A DNA stretch of 64,000 nt from assembly GCA_003021045.1 (NCBI GenBank), contig PXRN01000030.1, positions 1-64,000 on the forward strand, written 5' to 3'. Source of the DNA: Halobacteriales archaeon QS_4_69_34. GTDB lineage: Archaea; Halobacteriota; Halobacteria; Halobacteriales; Halococcaceae. Below the pieces are notes generated by a model, which saw nothing but the letters and a program-made list of their open reading frames with translations, made no database searches and was not told where the DNA came from. This document shows positions 1,380 to 62,730 of the stretch, piece by piece (the first letter of the stretch is position 1; every line of letters starts with the position of its first letter). The position numbers and the translations under genes are program-made.

Positions 1380-1834
1380 GGCTCTCCTGTGTGGCCGAGC
1401 GGCTAAAGCGTGTCTCCGGCGCGATGGGAGCGATCGTGGTGTTCGGCGTGGGTCGCGGTGTGAGTCGTGAGCGTCGGTGGGGCAGCGCGACGAGAACCGA
1501 ATGCCGGTGGAGCGACGCGATGAGTGTGTGCCGGGTAGAGCGAGACGACGACCGGATACAGGGGAAAGCGAGGCGACGCGACCGCGAACGCCGATGCACT
1601 TGAGAGACCGCACCGTCTGCGCCGCGACCGCAACGCGCCACACGCCTTCCACCCGATTGCTCCGTCCGAGCTCTCGGCTACCAGTTCACCACGACCGCGC
1701 CGCCGCCCCCCGCCCCACCCCGTCTCTCACACGAGCGGCCGCGCCGACGAACGGTGCGCAGCCGTGCGCCAGCGTACCGCTCACGGCTCCGCGCGTCGAC
1801 CCATCCCATCGCATACCGCGCTTGCGGCGATCGC
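1380..1834. other. 455-nt intergenic region carrying copy A of a dispersed repeat
   Basis: No gene is supported here. The right half (about 1570-1745) resembles stretches at 11644-11841 and 62299-62481 (see the repeat entries). The left part contains several GTGAGT/CGTGAGCG-type words but no convincing open frame or RNA. Confidence 0.5.
1570..1745 (+). repeat. dispersed intergenic element, copy A
   Basis: Shares ordered blocks with copies B and C. An early block contains CCGATGCACTTGAGAGACCG, followed by ACCCGATT about 60 nt on, then CTCTCGGCTACC and CGACCGCGCCGCC, and finally TCTCTCACACGAGCG. Copy B shares the first and last blocks and copy C shares the middle ones. Spacing is preserved apart from small indels. 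No terminal inverted repeats or open frame were seen. Confidence 0.5.
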
Positions 1835-11345: not shown

Positions 11346-11643
11346 CGGTAGGAGGGTGTCGGCTGCGGGGCATATCGGTTCCGATTCGCCGCCGGCGACG
11401 GGAGGGGGTTCGGGCGAGCGGGACGCCGGCTGCGAGCGTCGATCGAGTCGGGACGGACCGCGAGTTCGGCGCGCGAACCGTGGTCGCCGCACCGCACGAT
11501 CCACGCGCCTCCCGGGCCGATTCGCCCATCGGATGGGCTGGACAGCAATACGCAAACATCGACCGGCAGCGAACGCTCGATAGCGCTGGGTGTTCCGGCT
11601 GCGTCTACGAGACGATTCCGTCCGACAGCACGACTCGGTCGGA

Positions 11644-11841
11644 TCGAGGTGCGACCGCGAGTGCCGATATACCCGAGAGACCGCACCCGCCCCGCGACGC
11701 CACCGCAGCCGTCCACACCGCGGGCGACACCCCCAACCGATTCGCTCGCTGGCCACCGACGACACACCGCAGTCACGCCACAGCCCTTCTCGCCCCTCTC
11801 CCACACGAGCGTTGCGTACGACGATTACGCGCGGCCGCGCC
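11644..11841 (+). repeat. dispersed intergenic element, copy B
   Basis: Matches copy A in the early block (GCGACCGCGAGTGCCGATAT, then CCCGAGAGACCGCACC), in AACCGATTCGCTCG, and in the late block CTCTCCCACACGAGCG followed by GCGGCCGCGCC. The distance between early and late blocks is about 120 nt in both copies. It lies upstream of rnhA and tfb but contains no open frame of note. Confidence 0.5.
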
Positions 11842-35264: not shown

Positions 35265-35546
35265 CAGCCTTCGAGATTCGATCGAGATCCACCTGTCATC
35301 GTGCGAGCCGGACGAACGGCCCGATGGCAGCGGTGCGGTCGCGGCGGCGGTGCGGTCGCGGTGGCGGTGCGGTCTCGCACGTCCCGGCGTTCGGCCCCCG
35401 CGTCGCCCGGCTCGACACTCACGGCACTCGCGGTCGCTGCGGTGAACGAACCCGTCGAAAGAGCGGCTGTAGCGCAGTTCGGTCCGGGTTCGCGCGTCGC
35501 TGCGGTCGCCCACCGTACTTTTACTCGTGCACGCAGTAGCTCGACC

Positions 35547-36971: not shown

Positions 36972-37145
36972 CCAGACGTGAAGCGACAGCGTGAGGGCCG
37001 GATCGAGCGTGAGGGCGAGGACGGTGAGTGACGTCGAGTGGCACCGACGGGGCCGTAGATAGCGGGCCAAGCGAAGCGGAAGGGACCGTGAGTGCCGATA
37101 CACACGAGGCGCGCGATTGAATAGCGTTCGCGCCGGAGTTCGGGC

Positions 37146-58800: not shown

Positions 58801-58873
58801 GTACGCCGACGACCGGATCGAGCCCGACGCCGAACCGACGACCGAGGCGGCCCCACCCACGACCGATGACTGA
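55850..58873 (+). CDS. rpoA1: RNA polymerase subunit A' (Rpo1N)
   Basis: A 1007-residue N-terminal part of the largest subunit (clamp, active centre, bridge helix region). The catalytic [12 protein letters not shown] supplies D534, D536 and D538, which hold Mg. The clamp zinc motifs [18 protein letters not shown] and CRECSRLC...CPACG are intact, as is [20 protein letters not shown]. The end ([20 protein letters not shown]) is an acidic tail. It overlaps rpoA2 by eight bases. Confidence 0.96.
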
Positions 58874-61781
58874 GATAACCGACGCGATCGAGACCGCCGT
58901 CGAGAACCGCGAGCTCCCCCGACGACTCAAGGATCGGATATACGGAACGATCGAGGCGCGCGACGTGGACGCCGAGCAGGCCGGGGCGATCGCCGCGGCC
59001 GTCGAGGAGCGCTACGCCGAGACGCGGATCGACCCGCTCGATCCCGTGGGGACGGTCAGCGCCCAGAGCATCGGCGAGCCCGGCACCCAGATGAGCGTGC
59101 CAGCCGACGAGCGGGTACTCGTCCGGCGGGACGGCGAGACCCGTCTTGAAGCGATCGGGGCGCTGGTCGACCGCGTCGTGGACGCCGGCGAGACGCGGAC
59201 CGTCGGGGACAGCGAAGTCGCGCTCGCACCCGCGGGGCTCGAAGCGCTGAGCCTCGGGGCCGACGAGCAGGTCGCGTGGCGGTCGGTCGAGGAGGTGAGC
59301 CGGCACGCGGCACCAGAGGAGCTGCTCCGGATCGAGCTCGAATCCGGCCGGACAATCCGCGCGACCAAGTCCCACTCGTTCGTCACCCGCCAGGACAACG
59401 CGGTCGTGCCCGTCACGGGGGAGGATCTCGCGGTCGACGACTGGCTGCCCGTGGTCGGCGCGTTCGACGTCGACGACGGCACGGAGACGGTCGACATCCG
59501 GCCGTACTTCTCCACTAATGAGTACTGGCACACCTCCGCGCTCACCGATGGCGGCGTTGCAGCGCCGAGGAGTGCGGACGAGGCCGGTACGGAGCTGCCT
59601 GCCGGCGACGATCAGGTCCGGAACAAGTGTGCGGCGCTCGACGCCGGCGAGATCGATGCGAACACGATTTATCCAGTCGGAGGAACCGTCGGCCTCCCCG
59701 AGCTGTTCCCGCTCGACGAGGGGACCGGCTTCTTCCTCGGTGCGTGGCTCGCCGAGGGGAACGCCACGGAGCACTACGTCTCGGTGTCGAACGTCGATCC
59801 GGCGTTTCAGTGTCGTGTTCGGGCGTTCGCCGATCGCTTCGATCTCTCGATCAACGAGTACGCGAACGAGAGCGGCTTCGCCGACGGCTACGACGTCCGC
59901 GTGAACGGCACGGTGCTGGCTGACCTCCTCCGGGCAACCTGCATGGCCGACGGCGAGAAGGTCGTTCCCGAGTTCGCCTTCGGTGCGAACGACGCGTTCG
60001 TCGTCGGGCTGCTCTCGGGGTACTTCGGCGGCGACGGCAACGTCGCCGAGCGCGCGGTCCGGTCGAGTTCGACGTCCGAGCGGCTCACCGAGGGGGTCGC
60101 GCTGTTGCTCGCACGCGTCGGTGTCTACGCGACGCTCGGCGAGCAGGACGACTCGCACACGCTCCGGGTTCCGGCGAAGTTCGTCCCGCGCTTCGCCGAG
60201 CGGGTCGGGATGGTCGGCGATCGCGGCGCACAGCTGGTTGAGCTGGCGGCGGACGTCGACCCAGACGGCCCCGACGCGACCGACCAGATCCCGAACTTCG
60301 GCGACGCGCTCGAAACCGCCGCACGTGCCGCCGGCATCCCCCAACGACAGATCAACAGCGCGGCGAAGCGCCAGCGGATCGGTCGCAACCGACTCTCGCG
60401 GCTGGTCGAGCAGGTCGAGCGCGAAACCGCCGTGCGCCCAGATACGCTCGACGTGCTGGAGCAGGCAGTCGACGGCGACGCTGTCTGGGAGCGGATCGAG
60501 TCGGTCGAAACCGTCGAACCCGAGGGCGAGCGCGTCTACGACCTCTCGGTCGCGGGGTTGGAGACGTTCACCACGGGATCGGGCGTCGTGACGCACAACA
60601 CGATGAACACCTTCCATTACGCCGGGGTCGCGGAGATCGACGTCACGCAGGGGCTGCCGCGGCTGATCGAGCTGGTCGACGCGCGCAAGGAGCCGGACAC
60701 GCCGATGATGACGGTCCACCTCGAAGGGGAGTACGCCACCGAGCGCGAGCGCGCCCACGAGGTGGTCTGGAAGATCGAGGCCACCCGAATTCTGGCGCTC
60801 GGGGACGTCTCGACGAACGTCGCGGACATGCGCGTCCAGGTCAGCCTCAACGAGGACACCTTACGCGAGCGCTGGCCGAAGGTCGAGACCGACGAGGGCG
60901 AGCTCGAAAGCGACGCGGTCCAGCTCGAACGGGCGATCACGGCAGTCGCCGAGACCACCGAGGACGCCCTCGGCGTCGAGGTGACGCGCTCGGACACGGT
61001 CCTTGAGTTCGGCCCCGAGCAGCCGAGCTACCGCGAGCTCCTCCAGCTGGTCGAGGAGCTCCGCGAGATCGTCTACAAGGGCATCGAGGAGGTCTCCCGG
61101 GTCGTCATCCGCAAGGAGGAGGTCGAGGACGCCGGGGCCGGCGAGGACGGAGCAGGCGAAGCGGGCGACGGCGAGCCGCGCGAGGAGTTCGTCCTCTACA
61201 CCGAGGGGTCGGCCTTCGGCGACGCGCTCGCCATCGAGGGCGTCGACGCCAGCCGGACGACCTGCAACAACATCCACGAGATCCACCGCGAGCTCGGCGT
61301 CGAGGCCGCTCGCGAGACCATCATCGACGAGACGATGAACACGCTCGAAGAGCAGGGCCTCGACGACGTGAACATCCGCCACCTCATGCTGGTCGCGGAC
61401 ATCATGACCGCGGAGGGCACCATCGAGTCGATCGGCCGCCACGGCATCTCTGGATCGAAGGACTCGGTGCTCGCGCGGGCCGCCTTCGAGGTCACGGTCA
61501 ATCACCTGCTCGACGCGGCGATCCACGGCGAGGTCGACGATCTCAACGGCGTCGCCGAGAACGTGATCGTCGGCAAGCCGATCAAGCTCGGCACCGGCGA
61601 CGTGAACCTCCGGATGAGCGGTGCGACCGGGACGACCGGCGGGCCGGCGACCGACGGCGGCACGCCCCGCGAGTCCGCGGTCGGCAGCGCCGCCGGCGGT
61701 GGTGACGGTGGCGCTGCCGACCCGGATACCGGCACCGACGGCGATGGCGACGCGACCGCCGACGGCGCGCCCATCGGGTAG
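58866..61781 (+). CDS. rpoA2: RNA polymerase subunit A'' (Rpo1C) with an intein
   Basis: A 971-codon gene encoding the C-terminal part of the largest subunit, interrupted by a 502-residue intein (residues 77-578). The exteins join as SIGEPGTQM / [15 protein letters not shown], the trigger loop that closes on the incoming NTP; the Met and His just after the junction correspond to catalytic trigger-loop residues. After splicing the subunit has 469 residues: jaw and cleft parts ([40 protein letters not shown]) plus a Gly/Asp/Thr-rich tail of about 50. The stop TAG is directly followed by the nusA ATG. Confidence 0.95.
59094..60599 (+). mobile_element. intein with LAGLIDADG homing endonuclease in rpoA2
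   Basis: Starts with Ser 77 ([15 protein letters not shown], block A), has TKSH in block B (T167, H170), two dodecapeptide motifs [12 protein letters not shown] (Glu 297) and [12 protein letters not shown] (Asp 390), and block [18 protein letters not shown]. It ends VVTHN (Asn 578) before Thr 579, so first residue Ser, penultimate His, last Asn and +1 Thr are all present: splicing-competent by sequence. Both endonuclease acidic residues remain, and a helix-turn-helix-like segment ([20 protein letters not shown]) may contact DNA. The allele site is one known for archaeal A'' inteins, as far as I recall. Confidence 0.95.
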
Positions 61782-62207: not shown

Positions 62208-62730
62208 CGTTTTCTGCCGGCGAGCCACCGCCCCGCTCGGGCCGATTCTCGTGCTCTAAGAAATCGGCCGAGCCGCAGCGCGGACCGCGGGTGTCGAGCG
62301 AAGCAACGCGACGCGAACCACGAACGTCGATACACGAGCGACCACCCCCGCGGACAGCGACCGCTGCCCTGCGTTGCCCACGCGGCTCCCCACCCGATTC
62401 GCGCATTCGGCTCTCCGCTACCGTACCGCGACCGCCCCGCCAGCCCACCGCTCGCGGGTCGCTGCCCCGCTTGCAGCGAGGTGCTCACCCGTCGTCCCTC
62501 ACTTCGTCTCATTCACCGTCACCTCGCCCCGTTTGTCCCTCGTGCGAGCGGGCGTCCACGACGCGCCCGCCGTGTGCCGACCGGCTTCTCCGTGCTGTGC
62601 AGCATCACCGCCATTGTCCCCGTTTTCCGTCGTTACTTCCGGGTCGTCCTCCGCGCCACGCTCCGTGCCGCGTCGCTCGGACGCGTCGGCGGGAGGATGG
62701 AACTAAGTTGGGCCGGCAAGAATTGCGCGT
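62208..62730. other. 523-nt intergenic region after nusA
   Basis: Holds copy C of the dispersed repeat and the promoter of the cyclodeaminase gene (AACTAAG about 25 nt before ATG 62731). No gene is supportable. The usual ribosomal protein genes of the str operon are absent. Confidence 0.5.
62299..62481 (+). repeat. dispersed intergenic element, copy C
   Basis: Matches copy A best in the middle: CACCCGATTCGCGC, GGCTCTCCGCTACCG and CGACCGCCCCGCC, in the same order and spacing. Its first block is GAACGTCGATACACGAGCGA. The end block seen in A and B is not clear here. Confidence 0.5.

Follow-up and report, generated by a model that had tools for sequence, protein, structure and literature searches.

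The BOX elements of Streptococcus pneumoniae are modular, intergenic and non-coding; they vary in module number, form stem-loops and turn over slowly (PMC3049150). Among the haloarchaea, non-coding elements termed PATEs and SMRs have been described in Haloquadratum walsbyi; the PATEs are devoid of terminal inverted repeats, carry palindromes near their ends, and have these ends in common with IS605-type transposons (PMC3119063). REP elements, the units of the REP/REPIN system, are palindromes of 20-40 nt that occur with RAYT transposases (PMC3116915, PMC3733652).

The element analysed here was found in a window of 64,000 nucleotides from Halobacteriales archaeon QS_4_69_34 (contig PXRN01000030.1, positions 1 to 64,000). 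By behaviour it is closest to the BOX elements, being likewise modular (with a variable number of internal modules), non-coding, intergenic, furnished with stem-loops and slow to turn over, a likeness that carries no claim of sequence relation; in contrast to BOX it is archaeal and very G+C-rich, and neither terminal inverted repeats nor a related insertion sequence were found. Among haloarchaeal elements, its behaviour comes closest to that of the equally non-coding PATEs and SMRs; unlike the PATEs, it is not associated with TnpB, and four of six carrier genomes lack a Y1 transposase (the HqIRS elements were compared by description only). With REP/REPIN it shares numerous intergenic copies with hairpins, yet REPs are short palindromes. 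The RAYT of REP elements is a Y1-type transposase, the enzyme type that is absent from these four carriers. Literature searches, mostly outside the subscription journals, found no description of such a haloarchaeal repeat.

Copies in the window and in the surrounding genome

The original prediction had listed three copies with ordered blocks on the same strand, located in gene-free regions of 455, 637 and 523 nt and without clear terminal repeats. All three copies are present with their blocks in the described order (Table 1), the gap lengths are exact by gene calls, and a search of the three copies for terminal inverted repeats found none. A leave-out HMM, built from 16 own-genome copies outside the window, recovers all three and finds no match in the reversed window, an outcome far from chance level; block order is also conserved in further copies. 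The layout required two corrections: the last block of copy 3 is split off and displaced by an insertion, and the 11.6-kb gap holds a partial copy in addition to copy 2. Similarly, the single-block match near 37090 is real, but it represents the surviving head of a truncated copy and not a lone block; in a Halococcus-like genome, the whole element occupies the orthologous gap (L323:9794-10148) in the same orientation. Ordinary genes flank the window copies; copy 2 lies between an RNase H-like and a TFB gene that diverge from each other, and copy 3 lies 3' of nusA.

Table 1. Element copies and their parts in the window (positions count from its first nucleotide), and loci with extra hairpin cassettes in other genomes.
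Feature	Position	Strand	Support or composition
Copy 1	1580..1736	+	Leave-out profile E 1.8e-14; head (GACCGCGAACGCCGATGCACTTGAGAGACCGCACC), variable CCGCGACCGC spacer, block B (CACACGCCTTCCACCCGATTG), block C (GTCTCTCACACGAGCG)
Copy 1, putative G+C-rich inverted repeat on its 3' side	1737..1788	+	Arms AGCCGTGCGC (1760-1769) and GCTCACGGCT (1779-1788); fold weakly supported in own genome
Partial copy (head and block B), in the gap of copy 2	11429..11536	+	cmsearch E 1e-6; leave-out HMM 2e-4
Copy 2, complete	11653..11810	+	Leave-out profile E 4.7e-15
Weak, possibly degenerate copy in gap 35265-35546	35303..35393	-	cmsearch E 7e-4; candidate only
Fourth site, truncated head (GACCGTGAGTGCCGATACACACGAG)	37084..37108	+	Sequence and orthologous gap
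Copy 3	62317..62463	+	Leave-out profile E 1.5e-10; R1 E 1.5e-9
Displaced end block of copy 3 (GTCCCTCGTGCGAGCG)	62534..62551	+	Fits block C consensus of other copies
Extra hairpin cassettes	L237, L258, L261, L391 and L211, L225, L229		

In 40 own-genome stretches searched together with the window, the leave-out HMM gave 78 matches, and none in the reversed sequences. BLAST of the genome with copy 1 returned about 40 diverged matches, the best of them at G000:C11:81702 with 82% identity over 124 nt. The search models were built on alignments A2 and A3; R1, a profile of 18 copies from A2 that includes two window copies and leaves copy 3 outside its training set, found 112 matches at E <= 0.01 and 99 at E <= 1e-4 in the genome (2.57 Mb, 79% complete), which therefore carries approximately 100 copies. 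Since even the closest pairs of copies within one genome are just 76-92% alike, recent bursts are not seen. Elsewhere in this genome (G000:C7:44000-45500), a run of N between two near-identical coding stretches is probably an assembly gap.

On its displayed strand the element is C-rich. The own-genome consensus often has a GGTCGAGCGAAGCGACG stretch ahead of the head GACCGCGAGTGCCGATACACACGAGAGACCGCACC. Beyond the head, CCGCGACCGC-like units form a spacer whose length varies; block B (CCACACGCCTCCCCAGCCGATTCGCTCGCTCGGGCC, then ACCGCACCGCGACCGCACCGC) and block C (GGCCCTCGCTCACTCATCCCTCGCACGAGCG) come next, often with a G+C-rich hairpin 3' of the latter. Some copies, copy 3 included, have an extra hairpin-like insert within block C. 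The head differs between genomes: it is CACACGAG in 34 scorable own copies and CAAACGAG in 15 of 16 from Halococcus-like DNA.

All 58 own copies with both neighbours called are intergenic; 33 lie in tandem gaps (18 sense, 15 antisense), 14 in divergent and 11 in convergent gaps, as against 100, 62 and 25 similar-sized gaps without a copy. Placement is mixed as well in samples of 30 copies each from the Halorubrum-like genome G021 (99% complete) and the Natrialbaceae-like genome G118, where copies are dispersed over the chromosome. A link to gene direction was rejected for all three genomes; chromosome strand polarity was rejected on complete match lists, with none in G021 and just mild clustering in G118. 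Since the gap types are mixed and resemble those of copy-free gaps, a role tied to the transcription of the neighbours is unlikely. A terminator, a 3' UTR stability element or a leader element would fit the intergenic position and the stem-loops near the 3' end; yet gap types equal to background, the many copies flanked by diverging genes, and an even split of sense and antisense orientation make such a transcription-linked element hardly credible. The suggestion of shared regulatory DNA is likewise unsupported, as copy orientation and position are independent of the neighbouring genes.

Distribution in relatives and turnover of sites

R1 matched all ten genomes of one sister genus (6 to 33 copies each), and no copies were found in seven genomes from two further genera in this family. 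When 68 named RpoA'' loci were searched, R1 matched those of Halobacteriales archaeon SW_9_67_24, Halococcus morrhuae and H. thailandensis; since these include Halococcus species, the sister genus is most likely Halococcus. In all three, a copy follows nusA in the same place and orientation as copy 3. The gene beyond nusA (gap 62208-62730) is ornithine-cyclodeaminase-like in the window and rpsL in Halococcus and SW_9_67_24, a break in a usually conserved operon. The nearby rpoA''-like gene (58866-61781) has 971 codons, compared to approximately 392 in Halococcus; its length, common to many named haloarchaea, suggests an intein inside. An exact-pattern scan of named genomes gave no match, the likely reason being a head pattern peculiar to the own genome, whose near relatives are possibly absent from the collection.

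The conserved centre of the element is a 15-mer, CAC(G/A)CCTCCCCA(G/A)CC, located within block B. This core is present in 53 of 147 Halobacteriales genomes and 18 of 56 genera sampled, with up to 148 matches per genome (reversed-pattern control 0-1); single matches may be chance, but dozens per genome are not. Outside the family, the carriers known by name are Halorubrum sp. Atlit-26R and 48-1-W, together with four haloarchaeal plasmids from Halorubrum salinarum, Halobaculum and Halorussus. Viral carriage was rejected: 25 core matches on viral contigs look like chance, and none is accompanied by other blocks. The labels Halorubrum-like and Natrialbaceae-like are presumptive. Of the 14 best matches of R2, a model built from Halorubrum-like copies, in Halococcus-like DNA, 13 are R1 copies in register and one is a BLAST match; the E values are weak (2e-4 to 0.075), yet this coincidence with R1 copies supports a single family of Halorubrum-like and Halococcus-like elements. 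R2 finds just one own-genome copy, and the link from the window to the Halorubrum-like elements therefore runs via Halococcus.

An invariant 15-mer in many copies across the chromosome, oriented at random relative to genes, could also mark a DNA-level chromosome element, that is, a binding site for a nucleoid, replication or segregation protein. The lack of strand polarity in G021, the no more than mild clustering in G118, and the absence of the element from most genera make this quite improbable; moreover, a duplex binding site would not need the covarying hairpins described below.

Sites are gained and lost between species. Site 1 of G021 is empty in 12 Halorubrum-like genomes in which the same two genes are adjacent, which answers the original call for empty sites; since it is empty even in the three most distant genomes, the G021 lineage most likely acquired this copy. 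Site 4 was seen filled in G021 alone, although several other genomes differ in this neighbourhood. Site 3 is occupied in five of seven genomes read, always in one orientation, with the same boxes and entirely different hairpins. Among gaps with conserved neighbours in the own genome and in Halococcus-like DNA, two are filled only in the former and one only in the latter, one is filled in both in opposite orientation, and the nusA gap is filled in both; at 37.09 kb, the whole Halococcus-like copy faces the head that survives in the window. A site shared between distant species could be a repeated insertion. Comparison of occupied and empty sites defined no target-site duplication and no exact end, as the flanking sequences have diverged too far for the element ends to be located.

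Hairpins and covariation

In G021 the element is a hairpin chain of about 300 nt. A linker with the 15-mer at its end joins a long upstream stem to a second hairpin; the box CTCCCTCGCGCG separates this from a third hairpin, whose last nucleotides are CACGCGCC. For 20 copies, RNAalifold predicted 14 pairs, seven of which changed on both sides; with one added pair, 93% of cells are paired. The covariation score was 0.315, against 0.119 in shuffled alignments, none of 500 reaching it, and no more than 0.083 in slid ones; as a caveat, the shuffle control can be inflated by relatedness, and the slid control is biased towards a structure that was itself drawn from these sequences. Arms paired at 8.29 of 9 positions within copies vs. 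6.34 across copies; for the upstream stem, pairing within and between copies was 11.5 of 12 vs. 10.0 in G021 and 10.8 vs. 8.6 in a second Halorubrum-like genome, G149. At one pair of the outer stem, 23 of the 24 scorable G021 copies have G-C, and 20 of the 23 G149 copies have A-T; taken together, there are 24 G-C, 25 A-T, two mismatched and no G-T pairs (Fisher p 1.5e-12, which overstates the evidence since copies within a species are not independent). With G-C in one species and A-T in the other, pairing has been kept, and the copies within a genome change together.

Additional hairpin units were noted around some copies. At L252:1050-1360 in G021, head-to-tail units of 63 nt, each with a small CAGCCGCTCGGCTG hairpin, lie just upstream of a copy, and lone units stand upstream of others; in some copies from two families, extra hairpin cassettes (e.g. 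AGCGAGAATCGAAGATTCTCTGGCAG-CCGGCGCTACGCGCCGG-CGAC) separate the second hairpin from the CTCGCGCG box (Table 1).

The window's own family folds less convincingly. Alignment A2 yielded no consensus fold; the 3' region of own-genome copies has a mean z of -0.61 vs. 0.08 in control gaps, which is weak support, and the pairing of GAT/GAC with ATC/GTC is suggestive only (Fisher p 0.077). The folding check thus gave strong hairpins in Halorubrum-like copies and little in the own genome, and the proposal of a structured RNA family holds in part, for the covarying hairpins of these relatives, which may act as RNA or as single-stranded DNA, and finds no consensus fold in the family of the window. A functional structured non-coding RNA family, with copies transcribed and folded and with boxes and stems kept by selection on the RNA, would account for invariant unpaired boxes between covarying stems and for some sites being retained across species in the same orientation. 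Such a function sits poorly with 0 to 69 copies within a single genus (f17 g20), the gain and loss of sites, the poor folding of own-genome copies, and the result of the Rfam search, in which no match exceeded the gathering score and a permissive search gave nothing above chance level at the copies; on balance we consider it unlikely.

Candidate copying enzymes and the nature of the element

The search for enzyme partners covered Y1 transposase, reverse transcriptase and TnpB. Among six carriers, Y1 transposase is absent from the own genome (just 79% complete), G004, G021 (99%) and G118 and present in G013 and G115; PF00078 (reverse transcriptase) has no match in any of seven carriers. Three carriers together contain 19 TnpB loci; a core lies within about 1.5 kb of one of them, a count that chance allows, and none is enclosed by element ends. 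Nothing indicates that this copy belongs to the transposon. A degenerate IS200/IS605-type remnant of the PATE kind, mobilised by Y1 transposase, would share the missing terminal inverted repeats and the hairpins near the ends, and there is precedent in Haloquadratum (PMC3119063); given the four Y1-free carriers and the single TnpB-near copy, this origin is very improbable.

A MITE would have terminal inverted repeats, which the three window copies lack; no ends are shared with an IS200/IS605-type transposon, as a PATE would require; the RAYT-type Y1 transposase of REP/REPIN is absent from the same four carriers; and a SINE-like retroposed element finds no reverse transcriptase in the seven carriers. 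We class the element in purely descriptive terms, as a small interspersed repeat (BOX-like), on account of its dispersed non-coding intergenic copies, its modularity, and the stem-loops seen in relatives.

We consider it probable that this is a non-autonomous, non-coding interspersed element of haloarchaea, BOX-like in character, whose copying or gene conversion depends on a folded form. Given that the roughly 100 intergenic copies have diverged, contain no coding frame, and are gained or lost from one species to another, the old non-autonomous mobile element of the original prediction is the best fit. A copy is a chain of short invariant single-stranded boxes parted by hairpins or variable spacers, set between genes in either orientation, and the copies of a genome turn over by gain, loss and truncation and are homogenised. 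The existence of the family and the turnover of its sites are established; the mechanism is a proposal. Transposition or gene conversion would act on the folded form, most likely as single-stranded DNA hairpins processed by a trans-acting enzyme, and host genes would be tolerated neighbours rather than users. The element may spread by a trans-acting enzyme of another kind, or by recombination. Against this reading count the lack of an explanatory resident enzyme among Y1 transposase, reverse transcriptase and TnpB, the weak folding in the own genome, the absence of recent bursts, and the lack of definable exact ends. More tentatively, one may envision a haloarchaea-wide family in which copying and homogenisation need paired hairpins and use an archaeal machinery that is neither Y1 nor reverse transcriptase, with hairpin cassettes swapped among copies while the unpaired boxes stay fixed; this broader proposal is possible, though we would not presume it.

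To our knowledge, interspersed repeats of such size and number are well studied in bacteria and little studied in archaea. The present element spans several haloarchaeal families, and explains part of the G+C-rich intergenic DNA that annotation has left blank in carrier genomes. The genome-wide swap between G-C and A-T is direct evidence that copies evolve jointly and that pairing matters; the question of what copies these repeats therefore becomes testable in culturable Halorubrum strains.
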